Shown here: piece by piece, positions 3,868 through 11,234 of the stretch
Position numbering within the stretch: position 1 is the stretch's first letter
Layout of the letters: every line of letters begins with the position of its first letter
Assembly: GCA_003696105.1 (NCBI GenBank)
Contig: RFGE01000119.1
Span: 1 to 35,503, forward strand
DNA from: Deltaproteobacteria bacterium
Lineage (GTDB): Bacteria > Myxococcota_A > Polyangia > Haliangiales > J016
Length of the DNA stretch: 35,503 nt
Reading direction: 5' to 3'
Translations under genes and position numbers: made by a program
The notes under the pieces: generated by a model
Databases searched by the model: none
Told to the model about the DNA's origin: nothing
The model's input: the letters and a program-made list of their open reading frames with translations, nothing else

Positions 3868-4785
3868 CTACTTGCCGCCGCGCAGGATGCGGTCGACCGC
3901 GTCTTCGTTGGACTCGGTCAAGGTCGTCGAGCTGTTTTCGTCCTCGACGACGGCGTCAATGATGCGGTTGTCGTCGCGCTTTTCGGGCGCGCGCTCGGCG
4001 CGGCGATCGTGAATCCACCGCTCGACGCGCGCGTCCGACAGCGCCAGGCAAAACGTGCCGTAGAAATCGAGGCGGTTGATCGCGCGCAAGTAGTACTTGT
4101 CGTCGCGCCACTCGACGTGCTTGATGCGCTGATCGCCGTATTTGTCCTCCTCGAATACGACCTTGCCGGGACCGTAGCGTCCCTCCATCGCCTGGTGGAA
4201 GTACGCGAACGTTCGCTTGCCCTCCGGAAACATCCGCGCGTCGAACGCCAGGTACATCTTGTACAGCTCGCCGTCGACGAAGAAGAAAAACCGCCGCTGG
4301 TTGATGTTCTTCTCCGGGTCGGACTCCCAGAACACCAACATGGCCTCGTCGTTTCCGTGTGCAAACTCCGTGTCGATGATCGACACGTCCCACGTCTTCT
4401 TCTTGCCGTCGAACTTGGTGTAGCTGGCGTAGATGCGCTTCTTTTCCTTCTTCGCCTTCTCGCGCAGCTTGTCCTGCTCGTAGACGTCGGTCGTCGCGGC
4501 GATCTGGTCCTTGTACTTTTCGTCGATGCGCTTGTAGAGAACTCCGAGCACCTGCTTGGGCGACATGCCGAACTCGAAGCCGTTCATCAACTCCCCGATC
4601 GCCTTGTGATCGACCGCGGGCGCCGCGTCGGACGCCTGGCTCCGTGCCCCCCTCTTGTGTTTCTTCTTTTTGCCCTTGCGGGCCTTGGCCGCCGCTTCGG
4701 GCATCCCGCCGGTCACCGGTCCGGATGCGATGGACAGCGCGAAGCCGCATGCGAGAGCCCAGAGCAATTTGGTGTTTCCGATCAT
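3868..4785 (-). CDS. Secreted basic protein of unknown function
   Basis: 305 residues, family not recognised. The start at 4785 is set by GGAGG 7 nt upstream and by the hydrophobic signal peptide that follows; a longer frame upstream is arginine- and alanine-rich and has no such signal. After the signal peptide comes a strongly basic stretch (KARKGKKKKHKRGAR, about residues 36-50), then a soluble domain rich in Tyr, Lys and Glu (about 60-260) with FEFGMSPKQVLGVLYKRIDE near its beginning and repeated aromatic strands (RRFFFFVDGELYKMYLAFDA). The phrase GMSPKQV resembles the opening of small periplasmic domains in which a helix precedes a beta sheet. The C-terminus is acidic. A candidate -10 (TACACT) lies at 4836-4841, giving a leader of roughly 45 nt. 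The stop is followed by a 61-bp gap to the PEGA/TPR gene. Confidence 0.75.
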   Translation of the reverse strand: MIGNTKLLWALACGFALSIASGPVTGGMPEAAAKARKGKKKKHKRGARSQASDAAPAVDHKAIGELMNGFEFGMSPKQVLGVLYKRIDEKYKDQIAATTDVYEQDKLREKAKKEKKRIYASYTKFDGKKKTWDVSIIDTEFAHGNDEAMLVFWESDPEKNINQRRFFFFVDGELYKMYLAFDARMFPEGKRTFAYFHQAMEGRYGPGKVVFEEDKYGDQRIKHVEWRDDKYYLRAINRLDFYGTFCLALSDARVERWIHDRRAERAPEKRDDNRIIDAVVEDENSSTTLTESNEDAVDRILRGGK

Positions 4786-4968: not shown

Positions 4969-7962
4969 CTACGGCCGCAGATCGACCGCCGGTCGCTCGC
5001 GCGCGAGCGACTCGGATGCCCCGGTGAGCACGTCCGGCGTCACGATGATGTCGGTTTCGCGGCCCGAAATCGAGCCGTGGCAGCCGGCGCACACCGCGTC
5101 GAACAGGTCGGTCGCGACCCCCATGCTGACGGCCTCCCCCGGCCCGAGTTGGTGCGTCTCGGTCATCGACAGCAGCGTCGCGCCCGACGCGTCCTCGAGC
5201 GCGAGCACCACCGGGCGGCGCGCCGGCAACAGCATGCGAACCGAGCCGTCCGGCTCGAGCGGCGCGCGGCCGATGAGCTCTCGCTCCTGGTAGATGCCGT
5301 TGACGTTGCCCGACGTCGTGCCCGGCGGAGGCGCCTTCTCCAGGTAGACCGCCAGGTGAGTCGCGCCGGCGTACGCGTCGCGCGGGCGGCCGCGCCGCAG
5401 GTTGGCGGTAAACAGGGTCATCGTCGTCGGCGCGTCGATCATGTGCAGCAGTGCGGAGTCCTCGCCGCCCGTCTCGCTCGGCTGTGCGCCGCCGCCGAAC
5501 ACGAGCTGGCGCCGGTTGATGTAGCCGGCGTGCGGCGGTCGCTTGATCGCGAGCACCGCCTCGACCTGCTGGCCGGGGCCGGACACGAGCACCTGGCGGT
5601 CGGGCGTACACGTCGCGCCGGGCGCCGGAGGCACGCACGGCCGCGTGTAGACGATGTCGAAGTCGATCGACGTGAGCGCACCGAGGTCGCCAGTGAACGC
5701 GGCGTACGACACGATGATGCCGCCGTCGGGCGCCGTCGTCGGCGACCGGTAGGCGCCGACGGTCGCCGTGCCGACCCGACCCGTCGCCGCCGGATCGACA
5801 ATCGTCATCGACTTGAGGAACCCCTCGTCGTCACGCCCGGCCTCGAACGGCCCGACGCTGCGATTGAAGATTGCGAGCGTTCCGGCGCCGGCGCGCGCGC
5901 CGCGATCGGACAGAATCAACAGGAAGTTCCCGTTGGAACCTTCCCGGATCTCGGTGGCCTGCTGATAGTCCACCGACGGGCAGGTCGCGTCGAGATCGCG
6001 CAGATCGCAGAATTTCGATTGTGCCCGCTGCGCGAGCAGCGGGTGGTAGTCGGTGAGATCCCAATTGATGCGCCGGCCGCTGATCTGGTAGAAGCCGTCG
6101 CTCACCTTCTCGGTGGACATGATCATGCGGCCTTCGCGCATGAACGCCGGCGACAGCTCGCTGTTGAGCAGCACGGTCACCTGTTCGGGGTTCGATCCGT
6201 CCGCGCGCATCCGCCAGATGTCCGATTGCGGCAAGAACAGCGCGCGCGACACGGTGCCCGCACGCGACGTCGCGAACGCGATCCACTCGCCGTCCGGCGA
6301 CCACGCCGGGTCGAAACGATGAACGAGCATCCCGTCGACCCGGTCCGGGAACCCGTCGGGGACGATTTCGGTGCATCCTCCCCCGTCGATGTCGACGGTA
6401 TAGATCCGCCGCGGGTCGTCGGCGGCGACGCGCATCGCGAACGCGATCGTCCGGCCGTCGATGTTCACGTCGGGGCCGCTGATGTCGCGGGTCGCGCGAG
6501 TCCCGGGACACCCCGCCAGCAGGTCGACCGGCGCGCCGACCGCTGCGATCGAACCATCGGGTCCGAGCGTGAGATCCGCGCGCAGCAGCGACGAGCCCGG
6601 CTGGTACGTGTCGAACTCCAGCGGCGTGGCGACGTGGTCCTCGTCGCGGTCGACATAGATCATCGGGATCGTATCGCCGGGTTCCATCGGCGTGACCTGT
6701 CCGGCCGCCAGCAGCTTGTCCCGTTCGATGTCCACCCAGCGCTGGAAGGTGCAAAACGGCGTGGCGGTGGCCGGGTCGTAGTCGGCCGGGCAGGCCGACG
6801 GCAGCGACGGGCCGGAGCCCGCGGCCACGAGCACGGCGCCGCCCCGGTGACGGATACCGCCGTCGGACGCGAAGATGCCCTTGGCCACCGCACGGCTGGC
6901 GCGCGCGTCCGCAAATTCCATCGCCATGAAATCGTTCTTGAGCAGCTCGTAGTTCTTCTCCAGCGCCACGGCGGAGAAGAACCCTCGGCTGCCCGAGCGA
7001 AGCTTCAGATCGTTGAACGCCTGCGGGCTGTGGCACGCCTCGAACGAACAGCCGCGGGAAAGCAGCAGCGGTTGGACGTGGTCGGCAAAGAACTCCTTGC
7101 CCGGATCCCCGTCGCCGAACTCGATCGCGCCGACCTTCTCCGCCCAGCCCCGGATGGTCTGGTAGTCCGCATCGTCCCGGCTGCCGAAGTGGTCGCCGCC
7201 GGTGTGCGCGTAGCCACCCGCCGTAACGGCGAGCGGTCGGTTTAGCAGTTCGGAGTTGTCGACCTGCGCGTCGACGAACGCCTGGGCCTGGCGGAAGTTG
7301 AACGCCAGCTGCCGGTCGTCGTCGCCGCACGTGATGTAGAAGTCGGACTGCCCGGCGCCGTGACAGTTGCCGCTGTTGCACCGCTCGAGCACCGGCATGA
7401 CCTCGTCGCGGAAGCGCGCGAACTCGGGGTGGGCGCGGACCTCCATCTCCGTCGCCGCGTCGAAGTCCGGCGGAACGTCCGGCGAGCACGGCCCCGTGCC
7501 GTCCACGGGGGGCGACGGCGGAGGCAGGCCGTTTTCGGTCGCGCCGCGCTCCATCCACGTCTGCAAGGTCAAGTAGGCGGGGGATCCGACCTGGAACACG
7601 GGGCCGCCGGAGTGCGGGATGTCCAGGCACAGGAACTCGCCCCGGTAAGGAATCTGCACCTCGCAGGTCGCGCCGACCGCCTTGACGAGCAGCAGCGGGA
7701 TCGGATACGCGCCGAACGATCGCAGCACGTCGCGCCGCTTCTGCACGTTGTCGAACGACGTGAGGTCGAGGTTGCCGGCGGTGAACGCGAACGGATCGTC
7801 CGGGTCAGCCGCGTGGCAGCCCGCGACGTTGCGCACGCACGACTGCGCGAAGATCGGCGCGATCGTGTCGTCGTAAAACGTCGTGCCCGGGGCCGGCTCA
7901 TCGGTGCAGGCCCCCAGGGCCACCCACGAGCACACGAGCAGCAGCAGGCGAGTCGAACGCAT
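4969..7962 (-). CDS. Tetraheme PD40 beta-propeller lipoprotein, HzsA-related
   Basis: 997 residues with a lipobox (ALGAC, Cys19). Three cytochrome-c-like repeats lie N-terminally. Each has the form F-x-D/E-x-V/I-x-P-L/F followed by a heme site: CVRNVAGCH (Cys42-His50, a rare C-x6-CH), CNSGNCH (about residue 195, C-x4-CH) and CSFEACH (about residue 307, C-x4-CH). The middle is a PD40/TolB-type propeller (FDPAWSPDGEWIAFATS; MRADGSNPEQVT). The C-terminus has the HzsA-type pattern of DGS, PA-x2-P, a conserved D-x2-G and PGE, followed by a canonical CAGCH (about residue 959). The likely role is periplasmic or outer-membrane electron transfer, possibly with substrate binding by the propeller. It lies downstream of the HEAT and diheme genes but behind a hairpin and its own -10 box, so it is probably a separate transcript. 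Function is inferred; heme attachment at C-x6-CH is uncertain. Confidence 0.85.
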   Translation of the reverse strand: MRSTRLLLLVCSWVALGACTDEPAPGTTFYDDTIAPIFAQSCVRNVAGCHAADPDDPFAFTAGNLDLTSFDNVQKRRDVLRSFGAYPIPLLLVKAVGATCEVQIPYRGEFLCLDIPHSGGPVFQVGSPAYLTLQTWMERGATENGLPPPSPPVDGTGPCSPDVPPDFDAATEMEVRAHPEFARFRDEVMPVLERCNSGNCHGAGQSDFYITCGDDDRQLAFNFRQAQAFVDAQVDNSELLNRPLAVTAGGYAHTGGDHFGSRDDADYQTIRGWAEKVGAIEFGDGDPGKEFFADHVQPLLLSRGCSFEACHSPQAFNDLKLRSGSRGFFSAVALEKNYELLKNDFMAMEFADARASRAVAKGIFASDGGIRHRGGAVLVAAGSGPSLPSACPADYDPATATPFCTFQRWVDIERDKLLAAGQVTPMEPGDTIPMIYVDRDEDHVATPLEFDTYQPGSSLLRADLTLGPDGSIAAVGAPVDLLAGCPGTRATRDISGPDVNIDGRTIAFAMRVAADDPRRIYTVDIDGGGCTEIVPDGFPDRVDGMLVHRFDPAWSPDGEWIAFATSRAGTVSRALFLPQSDIWRMRADGSNPEQVTVLLNSELSPAFMREGRMIMSTEKVSDGFYQISGRRINWDLTDYHPLLAQRAQSKFCDLRDLDATCPSVDYQQATEIREGSNGNFLLILSDRGARAGAGTLAIFNRSVGPFEAGRDDEGFLKSMTIVDPAATGRVGTATVGAYRSPTTAPDGGIIVSYAAFTGDLGALTSIDFDIVYTRPCVPPAPGATCTPDRQVLVSGPGQQVEAVLAIKRPPHAGYINRRQLVFGGGAQPSETGGEDSALLHMIDAPTTMTLFTANLRRGRPRDAYAGATHLAVYLEKAPPPGTTSGNVNGIYQERELIGRAPLEPDGSVRMLLPARRPVVLALEDASGATLLSMTETHQLGPGEAVSMGVATDLFDAVCAGCHGSISGRETDIIVTPDVLTGASESLARERPAVDLRP

Positions 7963-8108: not shown

Positions 8109-8960
8109 TCATCGCAGCTGCGACAGCGCCACGCGCGCCACGCCGCGCACGAGCCCCGACGGGTCGGTCAGCGCGGCCTCGAGGACGCCGCGCGACGCCG
8201 GGTCGCCGATGCGGCCGAGCGCCCACGCCGCGTTGCGGCGCACCGCCGCGTCCGCGTCGGACGCCACCAGCCGCTCGAGCTCCGCGCGGGCGTCGGCCTG
8301 CCGGAACCGGCCGACGAGCGACGCCGCGGCCCGACGCACCGTCGCGTCACGGTCGGCCAACAGCGCCACCGCGGGCGCCGCCGACGTCTGGCCGCGAATT
8401 TCTCGCCACGCCGTCACCGCCTCGCGGCGCACGGCGGGATCCGGGTCCTTCATCGCTGCCGCAAGCGCCGGGTTCGCATCCGGGTGACCGATGCGGCCGA
8501 GAGCGCGCGCGATCGCGACGCGCGCCTCGGCGTCGAGATCCGTGCGCACGATCGCGGCCGACAGCGCCGGAATCGCCCGGACCAGTTGGAACGCGCCGAG
8601 CGCGTCGGCCGCATTGCGCGCCTTGATCGAGTCGTTCATCTGCAGGTACGCCAAAGAGCGCTCGGCGATCTCTTCCATCTGCGCCGGCCGAGCGGCGAAC
8701 CACCACGCGGCCGCCTCGCGCACCTCGTATTCGGGGTGATCGAGAAGCTGCATCATGTCGGGAATGCAGCTCGCGCAGAACATGAACTCCCCGTGCTCGA
8801 TCTGCGAGACGATCGCGGACGGCACGCCGCTGGCGATCGCGCGGCGCAGCTCCGCGACGGTGTGTCCGGGGTCGGCTGCGGCCGGCGCCGAGGTGGCGAC
8901 CAGCGCCAGCCCGAGCACCGCACCGACGAGCTTCTGGGTCAGGGTCTCGTGCGTCTTCAT
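8109..8960 (-). CDS. Secreted HEAT-repeat protein
   Basis: 283 residues with an N-terminal signal peptide ending SAPAAA|D (about residue 29). The mature protein is a solenoid of HEAT-like repeats of about 30 residues; examples are AVRRNAAWALGRIGDPASRG, ARVAIARALGRIGHPDANPA and AVRREAVTAWREIRG. Near the mature N-terminus is a CxxC pair (Cys62-A-S-Cys65) without a following His, so it is not a c-heme site; a disulfide or metal site is possible. HEAT solenoids are scaffolds for protein contacts. GGAGG 6 nt before the ATG supports the start. The gene begins 15 bp after the stop of the HzsA-like diheme lipoprotein, so the two are almost certainly cotranscribed, and a role as its periplasmic partner or assembly factor is a reasonable inference. 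Confidence 0.85.
   Translation of the reverse strand: MKTHETLTQKLVGAVLGLALVATSAPAAADPGHTVAELRRAIASGVPSAIVSQIEHGEFMFCASCIPDMMQLLDHPEYEVREAAAWWFAARPAQMEEIAERSLAYLQMNDSIKARNAADALGAFQLVRAIPALSAAIVRTDLDAEARVAIARALGRIGHPDANPALAAAMKDPDPAVRREAVTAWREIRGQTSAAPAVALLADRDATVRRAAASLVGRFRQADARAELERLVASDADAAVRRNAAWALGRIGDPASRGVLEAALTDPSGLVRGVARVALSQLR

Positions 8961-8975: not shown

Positions 8976-11234
<2,259 letters not shown>

Follow-up and report, generated by a model that had tools for sequence, protein, structure and literature searches.

A conserved, long-spaced C-x6-CH site in a family of predicted tetraheme HzsA-like lipoproteins of Polyangia

Contig RFGE01000119.1 of the Deltaproteobacteria bacterium assembly GCA_003696105.1 (class Polyangia), whose positions 1 to 35,503 are the window of this analysis, encodes on its reverse strand a predicted tetraheme lipoprotein related to HzsA, the alpha subunit of hydrazine synthase (HZS). 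An original prediction, made from the letters alone, held that a single protein carries one C-x6-CH, two C-x4-CH and one C-x2-CH motif, and this was confirmed in an open reading frame (ORF) of 997 amino acids (aa). Judged by its sequence, the protein represents an uncharacterised family built on the known HzsA core and provided with an unusually long-spaced first site, and the C-x6-CH motif is, by its conservation, a trait of that family and no accident. An origin of the gene by frameshift or artefact was considered and excluded, the 997-aa frame being open and dozens of full-length relatives being available.

Relatives were sought in a sample of 289 genomes of the same class with a cut-off of E <= 1e-20, and 113 of these matched, a few divergent paralogues being counted in; a contig search found 36 named loci, mostly titled as Myxococcales, Kofleriaceae or Deltaproteobacteria metagenome-assembled genomes. 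From 91 non-redundant matches, 80 rows covering the protein (query included) were aligned, the remainder being partial or divergent; the median pairwise identity of this alignment is 38%, and the mean per-column identity to the query is 43%. Against this background site 1 is kept almost throughout: C42 is present in 77 rows, C49 in 76 and H50 in 76, the domain that carries the site being absent from three rows (L003, L107, L108) and damaged or ambiguous in a fourth (L063). Because site 1 is conserved at a mean column identity of only 43%, a chance origin of the long-spaced motif is excluded. The alignment of homologues that had been proposed as a check on the C-x6-CH spacing thus shows it to be conserved, with x8 as the sole alternative (of 76 scorable rows, 55 have x6, 21 have x8 and none has another length; four of the 80 rows, L063 among them, could not be scored and were dropped). 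The loop length varies while the cysteines and the histidine are constant, and site 1 therefore behaves as expected of a heme site. The remaining sites do not vary in spacing (x4 at sites 2 and 3 in 80/80 rows, x2 at site 4 in 79/79 scorable rows), and H117 is found in all 77 rows having domain 1, as are H253 and H372 in all 80. In a tree of these 76 rows, built by a quick method with no bootstrap and with the trait's own columns left in, well supported branches force three changes of the x6/x8 label. Cysteines 159, 212, 391, 404, 485 and 530 are likewise conserved, in 75–77 of 80 rows, and probably form disulfides. The source genome also holds a second tetraheme copy (L113, G000:C50:231-3173), 67% identical and with an identical C-x6-CH; its contig is short and the diheme gene described below is not in view there.

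The first three sites lie in what appear to be tandem copies of one domain, an interpretation supported by profile comparison of the repeats and in agreement with the triplicated cytochrome domain originally proposed. In hhalign comparisons of sub-alignments from which L003, L107, L108, L063 and L031 were left out, domain 2 matched domain 3 at 98.3% (E 2.6e-14) and domain 1 matched domain 3 at 95.0% (E 3.8e-8), with CH and HxGG of both in register, and the match of domain 1 to domain 2 (86%) was confined to the HxGG and Trp end; the heme 4 domain gave no hhalign match to domains 1–3. Each N-terminal domain runs from [FY]-x3-[VI]-x-P-[ILV]-[LF] through C-xn-CH to an HxGG histidine and a conserved Trp, so that the shared lead-in noticed originally stands, its F-x-D/E wording being replaced by this pattern. 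Because the HxGG histidine is nearly invariant downstream of each site, hemes 1–3 are read as bis-His, with these histidines as candidate second axial ligands. As to the earlier comparison of the C-x4-CH sites with cytochromes c3, no class III cytochrome (c3) family matched any of 30 members scanned at E <= 0.01, and these carry HxGG instead. No Pfam family was consistent over the N-terminal part among the same 30 members, and the first 500 residues of the query had no Pfam match at E <= 1; a weak match to RoxC (NCBIfam) appeared in 1/30. Run over 19 relatives, a profile of domain 1 retrieved only its own family, a 209-aa fragment (G045:C7) and one weak match to a second domain. Matches of the N-terminal region to LRRK2 (E 0.28) look like chance, and a DNA pattern for C-x4-CH...HxGG, which matched three times in the source genome and twice in a reversed control, was not used.

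The C-terminal two thirds of the tetraheme protein are an HzsA core, and the original assignment to the HzsA type was borne out by Pfam, profile, Foldseek and VIA comparisons alike. The Pfam matches of the protein are a PD40 propeller repeat and HZS_alpha, the latter detected in 25 of 30 members; in the Protein Data Bank (PDB), the family profile matches hydrazine synthase alpha, 5C2V_A, best (E 5e-8). An AlphaFold2 model computed from 30 sequences, with a predicted local distance difference test score (pLDDT) of 76.3 and a predicted template modelling score (pTM) of 0.80, has 5C2V_A as its top Foldseek match (E 5.1e-19), and VIA superposed model residues 319–997 on residues 32–622 of that chain (Z 30.8, root-mean-square deviation 3.2, 453 residues; TolB 24.9). 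Because 5C2V_A tops the profile, Foldseek and VIA comparisons, heme 4 is assigned to the place of HzsA heme alpha-I. In HzsA, according to the available portions of PMC12607021 and PMC12758564, Tyr591 stands four residues past the motif histidine His587, His587 and Cys303 together bind a zinc ion, and the protein contains alpha-II as its second heme, a bis-His one. The proximal Tyr position is taken by Ser966 in the query, with no Tyr onward to the C-terminus, and no Tyr follows the site 4 motif in any aligned row; the alpha-II domain is absent, the protein ending 35 residues past heme 4 and the structural match stopping at residue 622 of 5C2V_A. Genes for beta/gamma subunits are not adjacent, the neighbours being a diheme HzsA-like gene and a HEAT-repeat gene. 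The tetraheme protein is not considered a hydrazine synthase, because the Tyr ligand and the alpha-II heme of HzsA are missing.

A propeller loop, RRxNWDLTDYHP (residues 630–641), would line the heme 4 pocket; its N, W, D, L, T, D, Y, H and P are invariant in 30 members. It falls between two profile anchors, at 246 and 331 of the chain, and the Cys303 segment of HzsA lies between the same two (Cys303 being placed with an offset of 27, from the CH position in the profile alignment compared with His587), and its correspondence to the zinc site is presumptive because the profile searches give flanking anchors only. In the model, the stretches with pLDDT below 50 (43–64, 243–258, 309–318, 363–376, 631–638 and 955–983) coincide with three of the heme sites (1, 3 and 4), with the HxGG motifs of domains 2 and 3 and with part of RRxNWDLTDYHP; low values at heme loops are the pattern expected because the cofactor is missing from the model.

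The tetraheme gene is the last of a trio in which it is preceded by the diheme gene and the HEAT gene, in that order. The diheme gene, searched at a stricter cut-off of 1e-30, is present in 110 of 289 genomes, and both cytochromes occur together in 109. In the 92 genomes that have both on one contig, the two are adjacent without exception, on the same strand, diheme first, and within 2.6 kb; in the remaining 17 they lie on separate contigs. A HEAT gene separates the two cytochromes in 32/32 loci holding both, several of these loci being one contig fetched twice. The original prediction saw in the two cytochromes divergent members of one family that share a DGS...P...PGE signature: the diheme gene is indeed of the same family, with Pfam HZS_alpha in both, but the unit is a three-gene operon. 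In the HEAT protein, a cysteine pair (C62/C65) is kept in 40/40 rows, with a spacing of x2 in 37 and x3 in 3, and might be a redox switch or a metal site between the cytochromes. The W86-W87 pair of the same HEAT protein, which is of periplasmic type, is also invariant.

Across the superfamily, the aligned heme sites have spacers of 2, 4, 6 and 8 residues and none of 3, 5 or 7; a contracted C-x1-CH, the sole x1 seen, stands at the alpha-II position of one divergent paralogue (L164, frame residue 1303). The second heme of the diheme protein has x4 in place of x2 in 3/31 rows (L060, L065, L071), and in these same genomes the tetraheme protein has x8, not x6, at site 1, so that both sites are two residues longer. 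Because the independent events are few, coupling and two-residue stepping are offered as an observation, not as a rule.

It had been proposed that the larger protein gained N-terminal hemes. Three N-terminal hemes are indeed predicted, but the protein also lacks alpha-II, which is present in HzsA, in the diheme gene and in distant paralogues, and either state may be the older: the divergent paralogues carry two N-terminal domains and both C-terminal hemes. These paralogues, found on contig C88 of the source genome and elsewhere in the class and phylum, are without domain 1 and keep domains 2 and 3 and heme 4; those with a complete frame mostly have an additional C-terminal heme, with x4 or x2. 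In a phylum sample, 44 of 282 genomes matched, and the combination of three N-terminal hemes without alpha-II looks class-level because the matches outside the class begin at query residue ~180 or later. On the C88 contig (L112, G000:C88, 999-9024), the HzsA-like gene combines a pair of x4 sites with heme 4 and one additional x4 site, and its neighbours, a DUF1501 gene and a lipoprotein with a CCP_MauG domain and propeller matches, recall the clusters of alpha with beta-gamma among HZS homologues, for which the accessible part of PMC12758564 reports a fused beta-gamma partner. Elsewhere in the source genome (L199 742-2382, G000:C349) lies a multiheme protein matching PF13447 (HAO-type).

For heme attachment, the source genome offers a single CcmF reading frame together with two further Cytochrom_C_asm frames, and a search for ResB gave no match in it; System I is taken to be in place because CcmF was found and ResB was not, with the limit that a second lyase could have been missed, the assembly consisting of 381 contigs at 98% completeness. 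System I is said, in the portion of PMC3601427 available, to read little beyond CXXCH.

Beyond the observed sequence features, conservation, triplication, HzsA-core homology and gene order, we infer heme occupancy, ligation, the direction of electron flow, catalysis and complex formation as follows. The reading that we favour, with some reserve, is that of a lipid-anchored tetraheme c-type cytochrome in which a three-heme relay serves a catalytic-type heme 4, the whole being part of a complex of the trio. The protein would be exported and held by its lipid anchor, with three tandem cytochrome domains directly after it; each of these would hold a single heme at its C-xn-CH motif (n being 6 or 8, 4 and 4 in turn), with the proximal histidine and the HxGG histidine making it bis-His and low spin. 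Hemes 1–3 would pass electrons between a partner in the membrane or periplasm and heme 4, which would sit where the TolB-like propeller meets the HZS_alpha domain, facing RRxNWDLTDYHP, as the likely active site of an oxidoreductase for a small molecule. The conserved loop and the kinship with HzsA favour, at low confidence, a small nitrogen or oxygen compound as substrate. The complex would be completed by the diheme protein as its other half and by the HEAT protein as a scaffold or redox-sensitive linker. The residues that lengthen the spacer of site 1 may bulge out as a loop, with the heme attached by the general Ccm system. More tentatively, the trio may be an undescribed and widespread oxidoreductase complex of Myxococcota type, with two HzsA-like halves, six hemes and a C-x6/x8-CH site matured by ordinary Ccm without a dedicated lyase.

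Several observations count against the relay with a catalytic-type heme 4. In one row (L092), CQ replaces CH at site 1. The N-terminal 400 residues have no PDB relative by sequence, and the N-terminal model has no Foldseek match at E <= 0.001, which does not show the fold to be new; the best match in a second fold comparison, PccH (4RLR), is weak (Z 4.2 over 83 residues). Heme site 2 and H117 lie outside the lowest-pLDDT stretches, and plain disorder is an alternative cause of the low values. The C-x15-CH site of Wolinella requires its own lyase, as stated in the same portion of PMC3601427, which speaks against service of site 1 by the general Ccm system.

An improbable alternative is that C42 and C49 are joined as a structural disulfide or bind a metal, the protein then being a triheme cytochrome whose first domain is degenerate. 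The six other conserved cysteines suggest disulfides in this protein, and searches of the open-licence PubMed Central (PMC) literature yielded no heme motif of the form C-x6-CH, an earlier publication elsewhere being possible; in the PMC results available, CX5CH, CX7CH, CX8CH and spelled-out and hyphen variants likewise appeared in no paper with an apparent heme subject. A disulfide, however, requires neither histidine, and H50 follows the second cysteine in 76/77 and the HxGG histidine is present in 77/77 rows having the domain; the register of CH and HxGG between the profiles of domains 1 and 3 argues in the same direction. Rather less unlikely, though doubtful, is the idea that all four hemes are an electron wire and heme 4 is non-catalytic, working in extracellular electron transfer or for a peroxidase-like partner. 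The lipid anchor, the multiheme make-up and the lack of a Tyr ligand at heme 4 would fit a wire, but nine invariant positions of RRxNWDLTDYHP in 30 members are stricter than a wire seems to require, and the HzsA core is retained.

That the protein is a true hydrazine synthase alpha in a host with anammox-like chemistry is hardly credible. HzsA is the best PDB match, an HAO-like multiheme gene is found in the genome, and next to the C88 paralogue lies the lipoprotein with CCP_MauG and propeller, which resembles the fused beta-gamma subunit; yet the protein has no Tyr past the heme 4 motif, alpha-II is absent, and the locus has no beta-gamma gene. HZS homologues outside anammox bacteria are also described, in the accessible part of PMC12758564, as being without the key residues.

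Coordinates of the trio and of features of the tetraheme protein in the window
Feature	Position	Strand	Basis or remark
Tetraheme HzsA-like lipoprotein	4969..7962	-	ATG start, 997 aa; PDB best match 5C2V_A
Lipobox LGAC, C19	7906..7917	-	C19 present in 76/80 members (export signal)
Heme site 1, C-x6-CH, C42VRNVAGC49H50	7813..7839	-	Sequence motif, conservation
H117 in HSGG, candidate distal ligand, heme 1	7612..7614	-	77/80
Heme site 2, C-x4-CH, C195NSGNC200H201	7360..7380	-	Sequence motif, conservation
H253 in HTGG, candidate distal ligand, heme 2	7204..7206	-	80/80
Heme site 3, C-x4-CH, C305SFEAC310H311	7030..7050	-	Sequence motif, conservation
H372 in HRGG, candidate distal ligand, heme 3	6847..6849	-	80/80
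Propeller loop RRINWDLTDYHPLLAQR, near-invariant	6025..6075	-	Conservation; putative position at heme 4 pocket
HZS_alpha domain PF18582, residues 888-946	5125..5301	-	Pfam 27.9 bits, cut-off 26.6
Heme site 4, C-x2-CH, C958AGC961H962	5077..5091	-	Counterpart of HzsA heme alpha-I
HEAT-repeat protein, middle gene of trio	8109..8960	-	Signal-like N-terminus, invariant C-x2/3-C pair
Diheme HzsA-like lipoprotein, 752 aa from likely GTG	8976..11234	-	Hemes 9645-9659 and 9429-9443

A conserved gene of unassigned function and without a Pfam match (window 3868-4782) stands after the trio in many, not all, related loci; in some it lies elsewhere nearby or on the opposite strand.

Automatic heme counting often ends at n = 2 to 4 or 5, as described in the available parts of PMC10734462 and PMC12545173, and would therefore miss the predicted C-x6-CH heme and similar ones. 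The tetraheme protein offers a natural spacer series (x6/x8, x4, x4, x2) within one chain in a genome with a single CcmF frame, so that the permissiveness of System I can be tested. The use of the HzsA core alongside other partners, in roughly two-fifths of the genomes sampled from the class, bears on the origin of hydrazine synthase, and the two-residue spacer steps (2, 4, 6, 8), if true, would point to a structural rule for the growth of apocytochrome loops.

Among known systems, OmcZ (C-x14-CH, PMC11208441) and MccA (C-x15-CH, PMC7096707, PMC12285233) likewise bind heme c through widely spaced cysteines, as given in the accessible parts of these sources; they are other proteins, and here the spacer is 6 or 8, is family-wide and lies within a tandem cytochrome domain for which heme binding is predicted. 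PccH of Geobacter sulfurreducens (PDB 4RLR) is monoheme; it is the weak fold match of the N-terminal model, and the Pfam PccH family gave a match at 5.8e-5 in the C88 paralogue, but convincing homology to domain 1 was not obtained. The HZS alpha homologues of Planctomycetota and Desulfobacterota, as far as described in the available text of PMC12758564, share an HzsA core without the residues that are key to hydrazine chemistry, but mostly have two heme sites or fewer and are co-located with beta-gamma homologues; the string "Myxococc-" is absent from the text of that paper, and nothing in the open-licence PMC literature joined it with hydrazine synthase, lipoprotein and cytochrome c. HzsA of Kuenenia stuttgartiensis (5C2V chain A) has the same TolB-like propeller followed by an HZS_alpha domain with a C-x2-CH heme. 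In contrast to HzsA, the tetraheme protein has three extra predicted N-terminal hemes and a lipid anchor, is without the alpha-II heme domain and the Tyr after the heme 4 motif, and is partnered by HzsA-like diheme and HEAT proteins instead of beta-gamma.

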